NCBI GenBank assembly: GCA_003557545.1
Contig: PWOD01000076.1
Coordinates: 1-18,579, forward strand
Origin: a bacterium
Lineage (GTDB): Bacteria > T1Sed10-126
Direction: 5' to 3'
Length of the DNA stretch: 18,579 nucleotides
A model generated the notes under the pieces. It was not told the origin of the DNA. It searched no databases and saw nothing but the letters and a program-made list of their open reading frames with translations. The translations under genes were made by a program, and so were the position numbers. Within the stretch, counting starts at the first letter, position 1, and each line of letters opens with the position of its first letter. Below are positions 3,236-15,374 of this stretch, piece after piece.

Positions 3236-3301
3236 CAAAACGGGGTCAGACACTACGTTTTACGATTTCAAAACAGGGTCAGACACTACGTTTTACGATT
3301 T
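3236..3301. repeat. Tandem pair of RAYT-associated repeats, left end
   Basis: Two direct copies of a 33-base unit lie head to tail at 3236-3268 and 3269-3301, differing at one base (G versus A at unit position 7). The core GTCAGACACTACGTTTTACG is at 3245-3264 and 3278-3297. The same core occurs twice in inverted orientation on the other side of the transposase. The transposase stop codon (3293-3295) falls inside the second copy. Confidence 0.9.
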
Positions 3302-4237
3302 TCCCGACTGAATCCACAGATCCCATTCCATCCTGATCTTTTTAAGTTGTTCTATCGTTTTCCTTATCATTCTTGATACTGTGGCAGTTGATACTCCTAA
3401 TTTTAATGAAATTTCTGTTGTTGACTTATGTCCATAACGACGTGCTGCATAAGCTAAACCTGCACGAACGTCGACAAGTTTTCGTTTTTTTGTGGGTTTC
3501 AGAACGAGCTCAACCTCATAGCCGTATAACTGTCTAACTCCCTGCAATAATTTACTCCAGGAAACGGGACTTTCCTCCCGTTGACCACTTCTTACCTTTT
3601 TCTTCCGAATCTGCATATATTTTTCCACATATTGATCGGAGGCAATAAAATGCTGTTGACGCTGGCAACGAACGGGAAGTTTTTCCGGGCTCTCCATTTT
3701 GTTCATCTGCTCTGCTAGTTTACAAACCGACTGCTCCACTGGAAGATTCATTATTTTTAATGCTTCACGCCAATCAATCCAGTCATATTCATCACTCAAG
3801 CCGGCATACAACCCAGCTGTTGACCCTGGATCCTCTACTGCCGTCTGATAAATTCCAGCCTTAACTCCCTGATTTTGAACATAATGCCAGACCATCTGAA
3901 AGTAGCTGTCAACCTCGACAATCGAACTAAAATATCTGCCATCATAAGCTGTTCCAGTTCGTCCATATCTCTTGTTATACCAGATCGTATAGCGAGCTTT
4001 TACTGTCTGAAAAAAACGGGACATTTCAATCCCCACGCGACGGACCAGAGCATGCCAGTGGTCATCCATGAAGCCAAAAGCATAAATTTTTAAATCATGA
4101 GACTGGCGGGTTTCACGGATTATCTCCAGAAATTTTTGACGTTTCTCAGGTGTGTCAAATAAGGGCAGACCATCAACACCACGAATAACAACATGATGAT
4201 ATGTATTAACAAAGTCGGGACGTAACGAACGTACCAT
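3293..4237 (-). CDS. REP-associated tyrosine transposase (Y1/HUH) with C-terminal helix-turn-helix
   Basis: This is a single-strand DNA transposase of the IS200/IS605-like Y1 superfamily, RAYT branch. The HUH motif is H60-W61-H62 in DDHWHALV, and the likely nucleophile is Tyr119 in HYVQNQGVKAG, which corresponds to the family motif YIxxNPVRAG. The N-terminus has the usual DFVNTYHHVVIRG with its conserved paired histidines. The C-terminal part (about 225-300) has a DnaA-C-like or helix-turn-helix segment, including STTEISLKLGVSTATVSRM, found in longer RAYT proteins and likely to contact repeat DNA. Its 314 residues appear intact with no frameshift. A GGGGAA ribosome binding site lies five bases before the ATG. 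The flanking repeats are the probable substrate. Activity is inferred. Confidence 0.93.
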   Translation of the reverse strand: MVRSLRPDFVNTYHHVVIRGVDGLPLFDTPEKRQKFLEIIRETRQSHDLKIYAFGFMDDHWHALVRRVGIEMSRFFQTVKARYTIWYNKRYGRTGTAYDGRYFSSIVEVDSYFQMVWHYVQNQGVKAGIYQTAVEDPGSTAGLYAGLSDEYDWIDWREALKIMNLPVEQSVCKLAEQMNKMESPEKLPVRCQRQQHFIASDQYVEKYMQIRKKKVRSGQREESPVSWSKLLQGVRQLYGYEVELVLKPTKKRKLVDVRAGLAYAARRYGHKSTTEISLKLGVSTATVSRMIRKTIEQLKKIRMEWDLWIQSGKS

Positions 4238-4583: not shown

Positions 4584-5582
4584 ATGAGTTCAAGGAAAAT
4601 TGTAATTGTTGGCTATGGAAATCTTGGACAGGGTGTCCATGCTGCAATAGAAAAAAATCGAGATATGGAGCTAAGCGGGATAATTTCCCGGGACCCCGAC
4701 CGTGTCCGCCAGACCCTGGCCGCGCGGCAGTTAACGGTTAAGACGGTGTTGGATGCCAACCAGAAGATCGACTTTAGCGAACAGCTGCCGGCAGAGGTGG
4801 CAATACTCTGTGGTGGTTCAAAGAGCGACCTGACCGAACAGGGGCCAAAATTTGCCCGCCATTATAACGTAGTCGACAGTTTTGATACTCACGACCGGAT
4901 CCCCGATTATTTCCAACAGATGGATAAAGTGGGCAAACGGCAAAAAAAACTAGCCTTGATTTCAGCCGGATGGGATCCGGGGATTTTTTCTGTGGAGCGG
5001 GTTCAGGCCGCCGCCTTTTTTCCCGAGTCAGAGATTTACAGTTTCTGGGGTCCGGGGGTCAGCCAGGGTCATTCTGACGCTGTCAGACAGATTCCAGGAG
5101 TACAGGACGCCCGACAATACACTATTCCCCTGGAGGCTGCCCTGACGGCGATTCGCCAGGGGAAAAACCCGGACTTTGAGCCGGGTGAAAAACATTTTCG
5201 AAAAGTTTATGTGGTCGCCGATGAGAAGGCCAACCGGGAGGAGATCAGCCGACAGATAAAAACCATGCCGGATTATTTTGAACCCTATCAAACAGAAGTG
5301 ATCTTCATCACACAGAAAGAGCTGGAGGAAGAGCACCATGAAATGTCGCACGGCGGGACAGTATTATGCACAGGGAAAACAGGTGCGGCAAAAATAAACA
5401 CAGAGTACAGTTGTAACTGGGGCAGCAATCCAGGGGCAACCGGTTCAATACTGGTGGCTTATGCGCGGGCGGTCCACCGGCTGGCCCGGCGGGGTGAAAC
5501 AGGGGCCCGAACTGTCCTGGACATATGTGCGGCAGATATCAGCCCGTTATCACGCCGGGAGCTGCGCGAGAGCTTTGTTTAA
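4584..5582 (+). CDS. ddh: meso-Diaminopimelate D-dehydrogenase
   Basis: An NADP-dependent enzyme converting L-tetrahydrodipicolinate plus ammonia directly to meso-diaminopimelate, the one-step branch of the lysine and peptidoglycan precursor pathway. It is 332 residues. An N-terminal Rossmann motif IVIVGYGNLGQG (about 6-17) is followed by family blocks that align along the whole length with the Corynebacterium glutamicum enzyme: EQGPKFARHYNVVDSFDTHD, LISAGWDPGIFSVERV, FWGPGVSQGHSDAVRQIPGV and TMPDYFEPYQTEV. The ATG follows GAGGAG at nine bases. It appears to be transcribed alone from its own promoter; a weak hairpin and another promoter follow. The cell wall is therefore probably meso-DAP type. 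Nothing looks truncated. Confidence 0.96.
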   Translation: MSSRKIVIVGYGNLGQGVHAAIEKNRDMELSGIISRDPDRVRQTLAARQLTVKTVLDANQKIDFSEQLPAEVAILCGGSKSDLTEQGPKFARHYNVVDSFDTHDRIPDYFQQMDKVGKRQKKLALISAGWDPGIFSVERVQAAAFFPESEIYSFWGPGVSQGHSDAVRQIPGVQDARQYTIPLEAALTAIRQGKNPDFEPGEKHFRKVYVVADEKANREEISRQIKTMPDYFEPYQTEVIFITQKELEEEHHEMSHGGTVLCTGKTGAAKINTEYSCNWGSNPGATGSILVAYARAVHRLARRGETGARTVLDICAADISPLSRRELRESFV

Positions 5583-6112: not shown

Positions 6113-7399
<1,287 letters not shown>

Positions 7400-7447: not shown

Positions 7448-8242
7448 ATGATAGGCAAAAAGATTCGTATGGAACGTTTAATAAACCGCCAGTCGGGAAA
7501 CACCGTGATTGTTCCAATGGACCATGGTGTAACGATCGGACCGGTTCCAGGTTTAGAGAATATGGCAGAAGCGATTGACCGGGTGGTCAGTGGTGGTGCA
7601 ACAGCGGTTTTAATGCACAAAGGTATGGTTGTCCACGGCCACCGGGGCGGCGGAAAGGATGTCGGACTTATCATCCACATGTCGGCCAGCACAGCTCTGT
7701 CGCTAAAACCGAACAATAAAATTCAGAGTTGTTCTGTCGAAGAGGCTCTACGGCTGGGTGCCGACGCCGTTTCGATCCATATCAACCTGGGAGCTGAAAA
7801 CGAAGACCTGATGTTAAAAAAGTTCGGCGAAATCGGTAACAGCTGCCAGGAATGGGGAATTCCCCTGATAGCAATGATGTATACTCGGGGGCCCCGGATA
7901 GAGAATGAATATGCTCCCGAAGTAGTCGCTCATGCCGCCCGGGTCGGCGCGGAGCTGGGAGCAGATATCGTAAAATGTAATTACACTGGGGATCCCGAAA
8001 GTTTTTCCCGAGTGATAGAAGGTTGTCCGGTGCCGGTAGTAATTGCCGGTGGAGAAAAGATGGAAGATGAGATCAGCATTTTACAGATGGTCAGTGAAGC
8101 CCACGAGGCCGGTGGACGAGGAGTTTCTATTGGCCGAAATGTTTTTCAGGCTCGCAAGCCGGACAGAATGGTCCGGGCGATCTCTTCAATAGTACATGAA
8201 AACCGCACGCCCGAAGAAGCGGAGGAGATCCTTCATGAGTAA
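7448..8242 (+). CDS. 2-Amino-3,7-dideoxy-D-threo-hept-6-ulosonate synthase (archaeal-type AroA')
   Basis: A DhnA/class I aldolase-type TIM barrel of 264 residues. In archaea this enzyme joins L-aspartate semialdehyde to a ketosugar phosphate (6-deoxy-5-ketofructose 1-phosphate) to start a DAHP-independent route to 3-dehydroquinate. The motifs seen are [11 protein letters not shown] (Asp25), [20 protein letters not shown] (Tyr145), [10 protein letters not shown] (probable Schiff-base Lys176) and the phosphate loops VIAGGEK and [10 protein letters not shown]. Its stop overlaps the start of the DHQ synthase II gene (ATGAGTAA), which fixes its function better than sequence alone, since class I FBP aldolases are close relatives. 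In Streptomyces griseus the relative GriI uses dihydroxyacetone phosphate to make 3-amino-4-hydroxybenzoate, a possible alternative role. The ATG is preceded by GGGGTG and AGGA, neither ideally spaced. Confidence 0.9.
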
Positions 8243-9248
8243 AGAAAAGATTATCTGGGTTAAGGTAGACAGTTATGACAGACAGTTTATTACAGGCTGC
8301 CTGGAAGCTGGAGTTGATGGAATCTATTCAACCGAACCAATAGGTAAAAAAATCGAGCAACTGGGTGTTGTTGATACTATAACCCCGGACGGCAAGATAG
8401 TTCCCGGTGAAGATGTAGTCACTGTAACGATACAGAGTAAAGAGGATGAAGAAAAAGCGCTGGTGGAAGCCGGCCACCGTTATGTTGTGGTAGAGACTGC
8501 TGACTGGATGATCATTCCGCTGGAAAATTTGATCGCCCGGACCAACAACCTGGTTGCCCTGGTCAACTCAGCCGAGGATGGCCGAACAGCCCTGGAGACT
8601 CTGGAAAAAGGGGTTGACGGTGTTTTGCTGGAGACTGACGAGTTACAGGAGGTTCAAAAAACTGTAAAGCTTGTAAAACAACCTCCGATCAATTACCCGC
8701 TGCATCCAGCAACGATCAAGACAATTGAGAAGTTGGGATTAGGAGACAGAGTTTGTGTTGACACATGCACAATGATGAAACCAGGCGAGGGAATGCTGGT
8801 CGGAGATTCCAGCGCCGGAATGTTCCTCGTATCAGCCGAGGTCAAAGAGGCTGAATATGTGGCTTCCCGACCGTTCCGAGTAAATGCCGGTGGAGTCCAT
8901 GCTTATATTCAGGTGCCGGGAGATAGAACCCGTTATCTGGCCGAACTGGAAGCAGGTGATGAGGTAACAGTGATCAATCACCAGGGAGAGGGTAAGAGCT
9001 CAATAGTCGGACGGGCCAAACTGGAAAGCAGACCTCTAATGAAGGTGACAGCCACGGTCGAGACGGAGAGCGGGGCCAAAGAGTTCTCCCTGGTTTTACA
9101 GAATGCTGAAACGATCAACCTGGTCAGTCCGGAGGGTGAACCGGTATCGATTGTCGAGCTGAGCCCGGGCGACAAAGTACTGAGCTATTATGAAGAGGCC
9201 GGACGGCATTTTGGAATCAAGGTAGAAGAGACAATATCGGAAAAATAG
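8235..9248 (+). CDS. 3-Dehydroquinate synthase II (archaeal-type AroB')
   Basis: In archaea this NAD-dependent enzyme oxidatively deaminates and cyclises the ADH product to 3-dehydroquinate. It is unrelated to the classic AroB. The 337 residues show the family blocks throughout: [98 protein letters not shown] and the ending [15 protein letters not shown] chose the ATG at 8235, which overlaps the preceding stop by eight bases and follows GGAGGAG (8221-8227) by seven bases; an in-frame upstream ATG at 8196 would add 13 basic residues without family support. The overlap implies translational coupling with the ADH synthase. The homologue GriH acts in 3-amino-4-hydroxybenzoate formation, so a secondary-metabolite role cannot be excluded. 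Confidence 0.95.
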
Positions 9249-14585: not shown

Positions 14586-14690
14586 AATAATCAGCTAAGT
14601 AAAAAGTGCCGCCTAATATAAAGGAGCTCTATAGATAGCAGGTGGCGAGAAAGATAATAGCCCGAAAATTTACCGATGGAGTTGATAAGA

Positions 14691-15374
14691 TTGAAAAAGT
14701 CCAGTTTCCTGATAATGCTAATTATTGTAGCTCTCACAATAACCGGTTGTGCTCGATTTGAAAGCCCGGCTGAAACTGATTATCCCTTTGAAGATTCACC
14801 CTTCATCACTCGAACCATACGGGCTGAAGAGGCCCGGGAAGCCGAAGAAGAGGCAGAGGATGAAGTTATTGAAAGAGCTGTTGAAGAAGAAACAGCAGTT
14901 GTTGATGATGCTGATGAAATAATGGAAGCAGCAGATAAAATTACCGCTGTGGAGGCTGAAATCAAAGGGGAAAATGTTGTTTTAACGATCCAGGAAAGTA
15001 TTCTATTTGAAACTCTCAGTGCCGAAGTAAAACGAACAGCCCATCCTGTTCTGGACGAAATTGCCAAGCTAATTCAGGAGTTTCCTGACCGGATGGCGCT
15101 GGTTGCCGGCCATGCTGATGATCGGCCAACACGAACCGAGCAGTTTCCGTCCAACTGGGACCTCTCAGCCCAGCGGGCAGTAAATGTTGTTAAATATATA
15201 AGACATCTTCCCGAGCTTGATCGGTCCCGATTGATTGCTGCCGGTTTCAGTAGATTTCATCCGGTAGCACCGAATGACACTCCCGAAAATCGTCGATTAA
15301 ACCGGAGAGTCGAGATTATTTTACTCCCTCCGTGGGGAGATACTAAAGAGATTAGCTTACCAGAAAAACTTTAG
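14691..15374 (+). CDS. Lipoprotein with OmpA/MotB-type peptidoglycan-binding domain
   Basis: From the TTG start the 227 residues begin LKKSSFLIMLIIVALTITGC, a classic lipoprotein signal with lipobox ending at Cys20. A strongly acidic Glu/Ala-rich linker (about 45-90) follows, then an OmpA C-like domain (about 96-212) with LVAGHADDRPTRTEQFPSNW, then DLSAQRAVNVVKYI and PENRRLNRRVEIIL; these match MotB and Pal peptidoglycan-binding motifs. The likely role is to tether membrane to peptidoglycan, Pal-like. I favour TTG 14691 because GGAG lies nine bases upstream and the signal then starts with Lys-Lys; the alternative ATG at 14676 adds MELIR and has no Shine-Dalgarno. No MotA or Tol genes are adjacent. 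The presence of the protein suggests an outer membrane. Confidence 0.88.
   Translation: MKKSSFLIMLIIVALTITGCARFESPAETDYPFEDSPFITRTIRAEEAREAEEEAEDEVIERAVEEETAVVDDADEIMEAADKITAVEAEIKGENVVLTIQESILFETLSAEVKRTAHPVLDEIAKLIQEFPDRMALVAGHADDRPTRTEQFPSNWDLSAQRAVNVVKYIRHLPELDRSRLIAAGFSRFHPVAPNDTPENRRLNRRVEIILLPPWGDTKEISLPEKL

Follow-up and report, generated by a model that had tools for sequence, protein, structure and literature searches.

An ADH synthase and 3-dehydroquinate synthase II gene pair as the most likely entry to the shikimate pathway of a bacterium, with a predicted intein-like fold in the second enzyme

The closest characterized relatives of the gene pair analyzed here come from archaea, where this substitute for the two textbook opening steps of aromatic amino acid synthesis was first discovered. 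In M. jannaschii, MJ0400 and MJ1249 produce 3-dehydroquinate from aspartate semialdehyde and 6-deoxy-5-ketofructose 1-phosphate (DKFP) with NAD; a transfer from DKFP to aspartate semialdehyde comes first, and NAD-dependent oxidative deamination and cyclisation follow (PMC4162585). MJ0400 has almost no fructose-bisphosphate (FBP) aldolase activity, and OE1472F of Halobacterium salinarum cleaves fructose 1,6-bisphosphate, the donor proposed for that organism (PMC4162585). A transcriptome paper on Desulfovibrio hydrothermalis described an aldolase and a 3-dehydroquinate synthase clustered with pheA, aroA, tyrA, and trp genes (PMC4162548). A second use of these protein families is known from GriI/GriH, which form a route to 3-amino-4-hydroxybenzoate (3,4-AHBA; PMC10179220).

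The window, meaning the whole stretch of DNA analyzed here, comprises 18,579 nucleotides of a bacterial contig (PWOD01000076.1). It contains an ADH synthase gene followed by a 3-dehydroquinate synthase II (DHQS II) gene, with the following features:

6119 to 7399, forward strand: enolase, 48 bases upstream of the pair on the same strand (open reading frame list, named from its sequence)
7448 to 8242, forward strand: ADH synthase (2-amino-3,7-dideoxy-D-threo-hept-6-ulosonate synthase), 264 amino acids, with the putative Schiff-base Lys176 and with Asp25 and Tyr145
8221 to 8227, forward strand: GGAGGAG, ribosome-binding site of the DHQS II gene, within the 3' end of the ADH synthase gene (sequence)
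8235 to 8242, forward strand: 8-base gene overlap (reading frame coordinates and sequence), the same in the sister-family genome G001
8235 to 9248, forward strand: DHQS II, 337 amino acids (NF002627, PF01959)

The pair belongs to the same two enzyme families as MJ0400/MJ1249 and OE1472F/OE1475F, and in all three hosts the later shikimate steps are of the usual kind. It differs from the archaeal pairs in residing in a bacterium and in the overlap of its genes. The later enzymes of the host are also bacterial, such as the type II dehydroquinase AroQ, whereas M. jannaschii and H. salinarum have a type I enzyme.

The preliminary description of this DNA had recognized an ADH synthase-like aldolase by Lys176, Tyr145, and Asp25. 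These residues lie at those positions, and the 264-residue protein scored above the cut-off of the curated equivalog model TIGR01949 ADH_synth (349.8 bits, cut-off 299.45) and of NF005556 (403 bits, cut-off 241). The top PDB match was MJ0400 (2qjg; E 8e-93, 56% identity), which shares the active-site residues: D25, Y145, and K176 correspond to D33, Y153, and K184 in a gap-free alignment with an offset of 8. We rejected this triad as proof of an ADH synthase, because it is common to FBP aldolase; each of the 44 aldolases in the tree carries the three residues, one FBP aldolase included. The catalytic residues are thus not diagnostic by themselves and support a class I aldolase rather than its substrate, whereas the profile scores and the tree diagnose the ADH synthase.

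The shared residues, together with the FBP cleavage by the H. salinarum homologue OE1472F (PMC4162585), could be read as signs of a mainly glycolytic FBP aldolase with a DHQS II gene as its neighbor by chance. We consider this highly improbable, since the protein reached 350 bits with the ADH synthase model against 219 bits with the archaeal FBP aldolase profile, far under the cut-off of 430 of the latter. In the aldolase tree, MJ0400, itself almost devoid of FBP aldolase activity (PMC4162585), fell inside the clade of the window protein, and the FBP aldolase, represented by one T. tenax row on a very long branch, fell far outside. The overlap with the DHQS II gene also argues against a chance association. 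MJ0400 branched inside bacterial aldolases in this tree.

The downstream protein was correctly named a full-length DHQS II, with 442 bits against NF002627 (cut-off 392) and 402 bits against PF01959 in a full-length match (model positions 1-344). An alternative in-frame ATG lies at 8196 and was the start used by the mechanical open reading frame list. However, GGAGGAG precedes the ATG at 8235, and the pair of G001 also overlaps by eight bases (8282-8289), so the start at 8235 and the eight-base overlap stand. The arrangement suggests that translation of the two genes is coupled.

By homology with the archaeal enzymes, Lys176 of ADH synthase would form a Schiff base with a ketose phosphate, either DKFP or possibly fructose 1,6-bisphosphate. 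A three-carbon fragment would leave, and the remainder would be joined to L-aspartate semialdehyde. DHQS II with NAD would then carry out oxidative deamination and cyclisation of this product to 3-dehydroquinate, which AroQ, AroE, AroK, AroA, and AroC would convert to chorismate. The reactions, the donor sugar, and the NAD dependence are thus those expected from the relatives. Methylglyoxal synthase was considered as a general supplier of the sugar donor, which was unsupported, as it was found in G001 but not in the host, and in only one of nine genomes with DHQS II. Separately, a near-complete single-contig genome has a match to methylglyoxal synthase (G036:C1:166500-166907) that contains a single in-frame TAG, either a pseudogene or a recoded stop.

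We searched the rest of the host genome, a 2.15-Mb draft of 239 contigs with 92% completeness, for the remaining shikimate genes. Profile searches found no AroB in the host draft or in G001 (93% complete), and no type II DAHP synthase in the host draft. The single DAHP-synthase-like (PF00793) protein of the host is KdsA, with 364 bits for KDO8P synthase, above the cut-off, and 106 bits for DAHP synthase, far below it. Its gene adjoins an apparent sugar-phosphate isomerase, a phosphatase, and lipopolysaccharide glycosyltransferases, all named by eye from their sequences. G001 likewise has only KdsA. The genes aroQ, aroE, aroK, aroA, and aroC were all present in the host; aroE, aroK, and aroQ are clustered on contig C213, aroA is split between the ends of contigs C93 and C237, and contig C98 ends within aroC. 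A type I dehydroquinase was not found in the host genome.

Since AroB and DAHP synthase are missing and the later genes are present, the pair most likely is the sole host route to 3-dehydroquinate and feeds an ordinary bacterial shikimate pathway. The earlier proposal that it bypasses DAHP synthase and classic AroB agrees with both genomes. The absences are not final in a draft of 92% completeness, yet the two genomes agree. Fragmentation into 239 contigs, whose ends break aroA and aroC too, leaves room for a classic AroB and DAHP synthase hidden in assembly gaps, with the pair as a mere accessory. This is very unlikely, as two separate genes would have to be missing from the assemblies of both the host and G001, and the group of aroE, aroK, and aroQ has no aroB between or beside its members. 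We therefore hold with high confidence that the pair is the route of the host to 3-dehydroquinate, and the alternative entry is real and probably essential in this bacterium.

A 102-kb contig of G001 has the same gene order, infC, thrS ... enolase, pair, ackA, folK. Because the neighborhood is conserved, the pair is no assembly accident. The surrounding genes are housekeeping genes, and no adenylate-forming enzyme, oxygenase, NRPS, or transporter gene was found beside the window pair, unlike the plasmid loci considered below. A primary role had been favored beforehand from the location behind enolase in a housekeeping context without tailoring genes, and this context was borne out. Pfam placed a diaminopimelate dehydrogenase at 4584-5582, which, as part of the lysine pathway, would agree with a pool of aspartate semialdehyde.

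Some further observations concern the window and its host. At 3293-4237, with thrS on one side and the gene for diaminopimelate dehydrogenase on the other, lies a Y1 (IS200-like) transposase domain with a weak match to the DnaA C-terminal helix-turn-helix; it does not occur at that place in G001. An OmpA-domain protein at 14676-15374 and KDO/lipopolysaccharide-type genes (L022:1669-6157) point to an outer membrane in the host. The promoter and terminator scan gave counts close to the shuffle mean.

The pair was also compared with the specialized-metabolite type. Streptomyces and Klebsiella plasmid records carry the pair, and Sinorhizobium plasmids carry DHQS II. These plasmid-borne relatives adjoin adenylate-forming enzymes, oxygenases, NRPS genes, or transporters, and such loci with tailoring genes fit the GriI/GriH route to 3-amino-4-hydroxybenzoate. 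The Streptomyces 3,4-AHBA synthases GriI/GriH, BagB/BagC, and FevI/FevH resemble the window pair in protein families and gene order, whereas they differ in their own signature residues, a long distance in the tree, and specialized-metabolite surroundings. One such signature was found in DHQS II:

9099 to 9113, forward strand: QNAET motif, DHQS II residues 289-293, marker of the primary versus the 3,4-AHBA type

QNAET occurs in the window and in 80 of 80 genome loci, whereas seven of seven plasmid-borne relatives examined have Q[DN]DWH. Seven aldolase positions also split the primary and plasmid types, and at these the window protein has the primary letters, as does MJ0400. In the DHQS II tree, a long, supported branch divides the plasmid-borne relatives from the window-type sequences. 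Additionally, the strict exception models stayed below their cut-offs, with 226 bits for BagB/FevI (cut-off 500) and 162 bits for BagC/FevH (cut-off 750). From the tree, the motif, the seven aldolase positions, and these scores, we assign the window pair to the primary kind. A GriI/GriH-type role, with production of 3-amino-4-hydroxybenzoate for a specialized metabolite, is extremely improbable, even though the two protein families are the same and the BagB/FevI and BagC/FevH models match weakly, far under the cut-off. Besides the motif, the aldolase letters, the branch, and the lack of tailoring genes at the pair, such a role would leave the genome without a known source of 3-dehydroquinate.

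The preliminary description had preferred primary aromatic biosynthesis over the GriI/GriH type, and the trees and diagnostic residues support that choice. Both proteins grouped in phylogenies with primary-metabolism enzymes, apart from the GriI/GriH-like plasmid pairs. It had also named findings that would speak against it and a whole-genome search for the shikimate genes. The profile scores and tree do not place the aldolase among FBP aldolases, and the search for a DAHP synthase and AroB in the draft genome and for tailoring genes beside the pair found none of them; the genome holds aroQ, aroE, aroK, aroA, and aroC with no aroB and no DAHP synthase.

Its statement that the route is rare in bacteria did not hold. 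At least 584 stretches of GTDB species genomes encode relatives of DHQS II. The best 80 of these come almost entirely from records named bacterial, including Thermodesulfobacteriota, Aquificota, Armatimonadota, Planctomycetota, Omnitrophota, and others. Among these best 80 loci, 65 contain an ADH synthase, located at most 500 bases upstream in 62, whereas 15 have none in the locus, 13 of them Aquificota. Of the 80 loci, 33 contain aroE, aroA, or aroC. Such pairs have thus been described before and are widespread among bacteria, and the window pair is ordinary in kind. The Desulfovibrio cluster (DESAMv2_21548-21557; PMC4162548) and other bacteria have the same pair, apparently for aromatic amino acids. 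It differs from the window pair in that the latter lies behind enolase, with the other aro genes of the host on other contigs.

In a sample of 41 genomes from around the host, nine had DHQS II and 26 had AroB above the cut-off. Both occurred in two genomes, DHQS II only in seven, AroB only in 24, and neither in eight (Fisher p 0.006, kinship ignored). AroB and DHQS II therefore tend toward mutual exclusion in this sample.

Three loci (L052, L055, and L070) whose records bear the names Nanohalarchaeota or Aenigmatarchaeota have a DHQS II that the tree places with bacterial proteins, and two of these loci also have aroC, aroA, and aroE matches nearby; they may be misbinned contigs or transfers. 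A Phycisphaerales genome has two tandem ADH synthase-like genes (L111:996-2753) about 4 kb from DHQS II. Another genome has a second, partial DHQS II match (G038:C77:1130-1834), with a longer copy on another contig.

The added interest of this ordinary pair would lie in the predicted fold of DHQS II. No solved chain resembling DHQS II by sequence was found, and the full-length protein was modeled with AlphaFold2 from 52 aligned sequences (pLDDT 85.5, pTM 0.65). Residues 1-150 of the model form part of a beta/alpha barrel, with TrpF as the best match (Z 14.3). The C-terminal part was predicted as follows:

8706 to 9194, forward strand: predicted circularly permuted HINT-like domain, DHQS II residues 158-320 (AlphaFold2, VIA-align)

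In the full-length model, residues 158-320 matched SICLOPPS inteins with Z 13.5, and the C-terminal domain was also modeled alone (pLDDT 85.8, pTM 0.84). With VIA-align, ranks 1-27 for this predicted domain were all inteins or intein-like, the first non-HINT fold had Z 3.2, and the best HINT match, aligned in permuted order across 134 residues, reached Z 13.5. The SICLOPPS (permuted DnaE) inteins 5ol7, 5ol5, 5ol1, and 5ol6 gave Z 13.0-13.5 with rmsd 2.5-3.1 over 133-138 residues; in these chains the C-intein stands before the N-intein, an order seen in 5ol6 and 5ol7. Natural-order inteins, in contrast, aligned over about 95 residues with Z 5-7. The higher Z and greater length with SICLOPPS chains are as expected for a HINT fold in circular permutation. 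Likewise, the C-intein-like part appears to precede the N-intein-like part in the DHQS II domain. DHQS II differs from the SICLOPPS and Npu inteins in that identity is about 10%, no Npu sequence match is supported, and there is no sign of splicing.

When aligned ranges were interpolated rather than superposed, intein residue 1 fell at DHQS II residue 217-218, which belongs to the invariant RVNA..H stretch. Intein block B fell close to residues 290-293 of the QNAET motif. Pfam Hint gave weak matches in 32 of 56 DHQS II members, all sub-cut-off and among other weak matches (best E 6e-4), and was the commonest second family among these members. When DHQS II was aligned to a permuted Npu intein with hhalign, the result was no better than shuffles, and Foldseek with the C-terminal domain gave no significant match, the best intein having E 0.065. 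The HINT claim comes from VIA-align and describes a resemblance of the predicted fold, not membership. The literature search returned no paper joining dehydroquinate synthase with intein and hint. We consider it an evenly balanced question whether DHQS II combines a barrel-like N-terminal half with a permuted-HINT C-terminal domain, its catalytic machinery being partly built on an intein-like scaffold.

If the HINT fold holds, it would give the first structural view of the DHQS II family and would tie a protein-splicing fold to central metabolism; the alternative motifs QNAET and Q[DN]DWH near block B would then be a candidate switch of reaction type. The survey also yields simple residues that separate primary DHQS II and ADH synthase from their specialized-metabolite relatives. 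For the organism, the results indicate that a thinly sampled bacterial family depends on the alternative way into the shikimate pathway, and that an annotation relying on AroB would mistake this family for an aromatic auxotroph.
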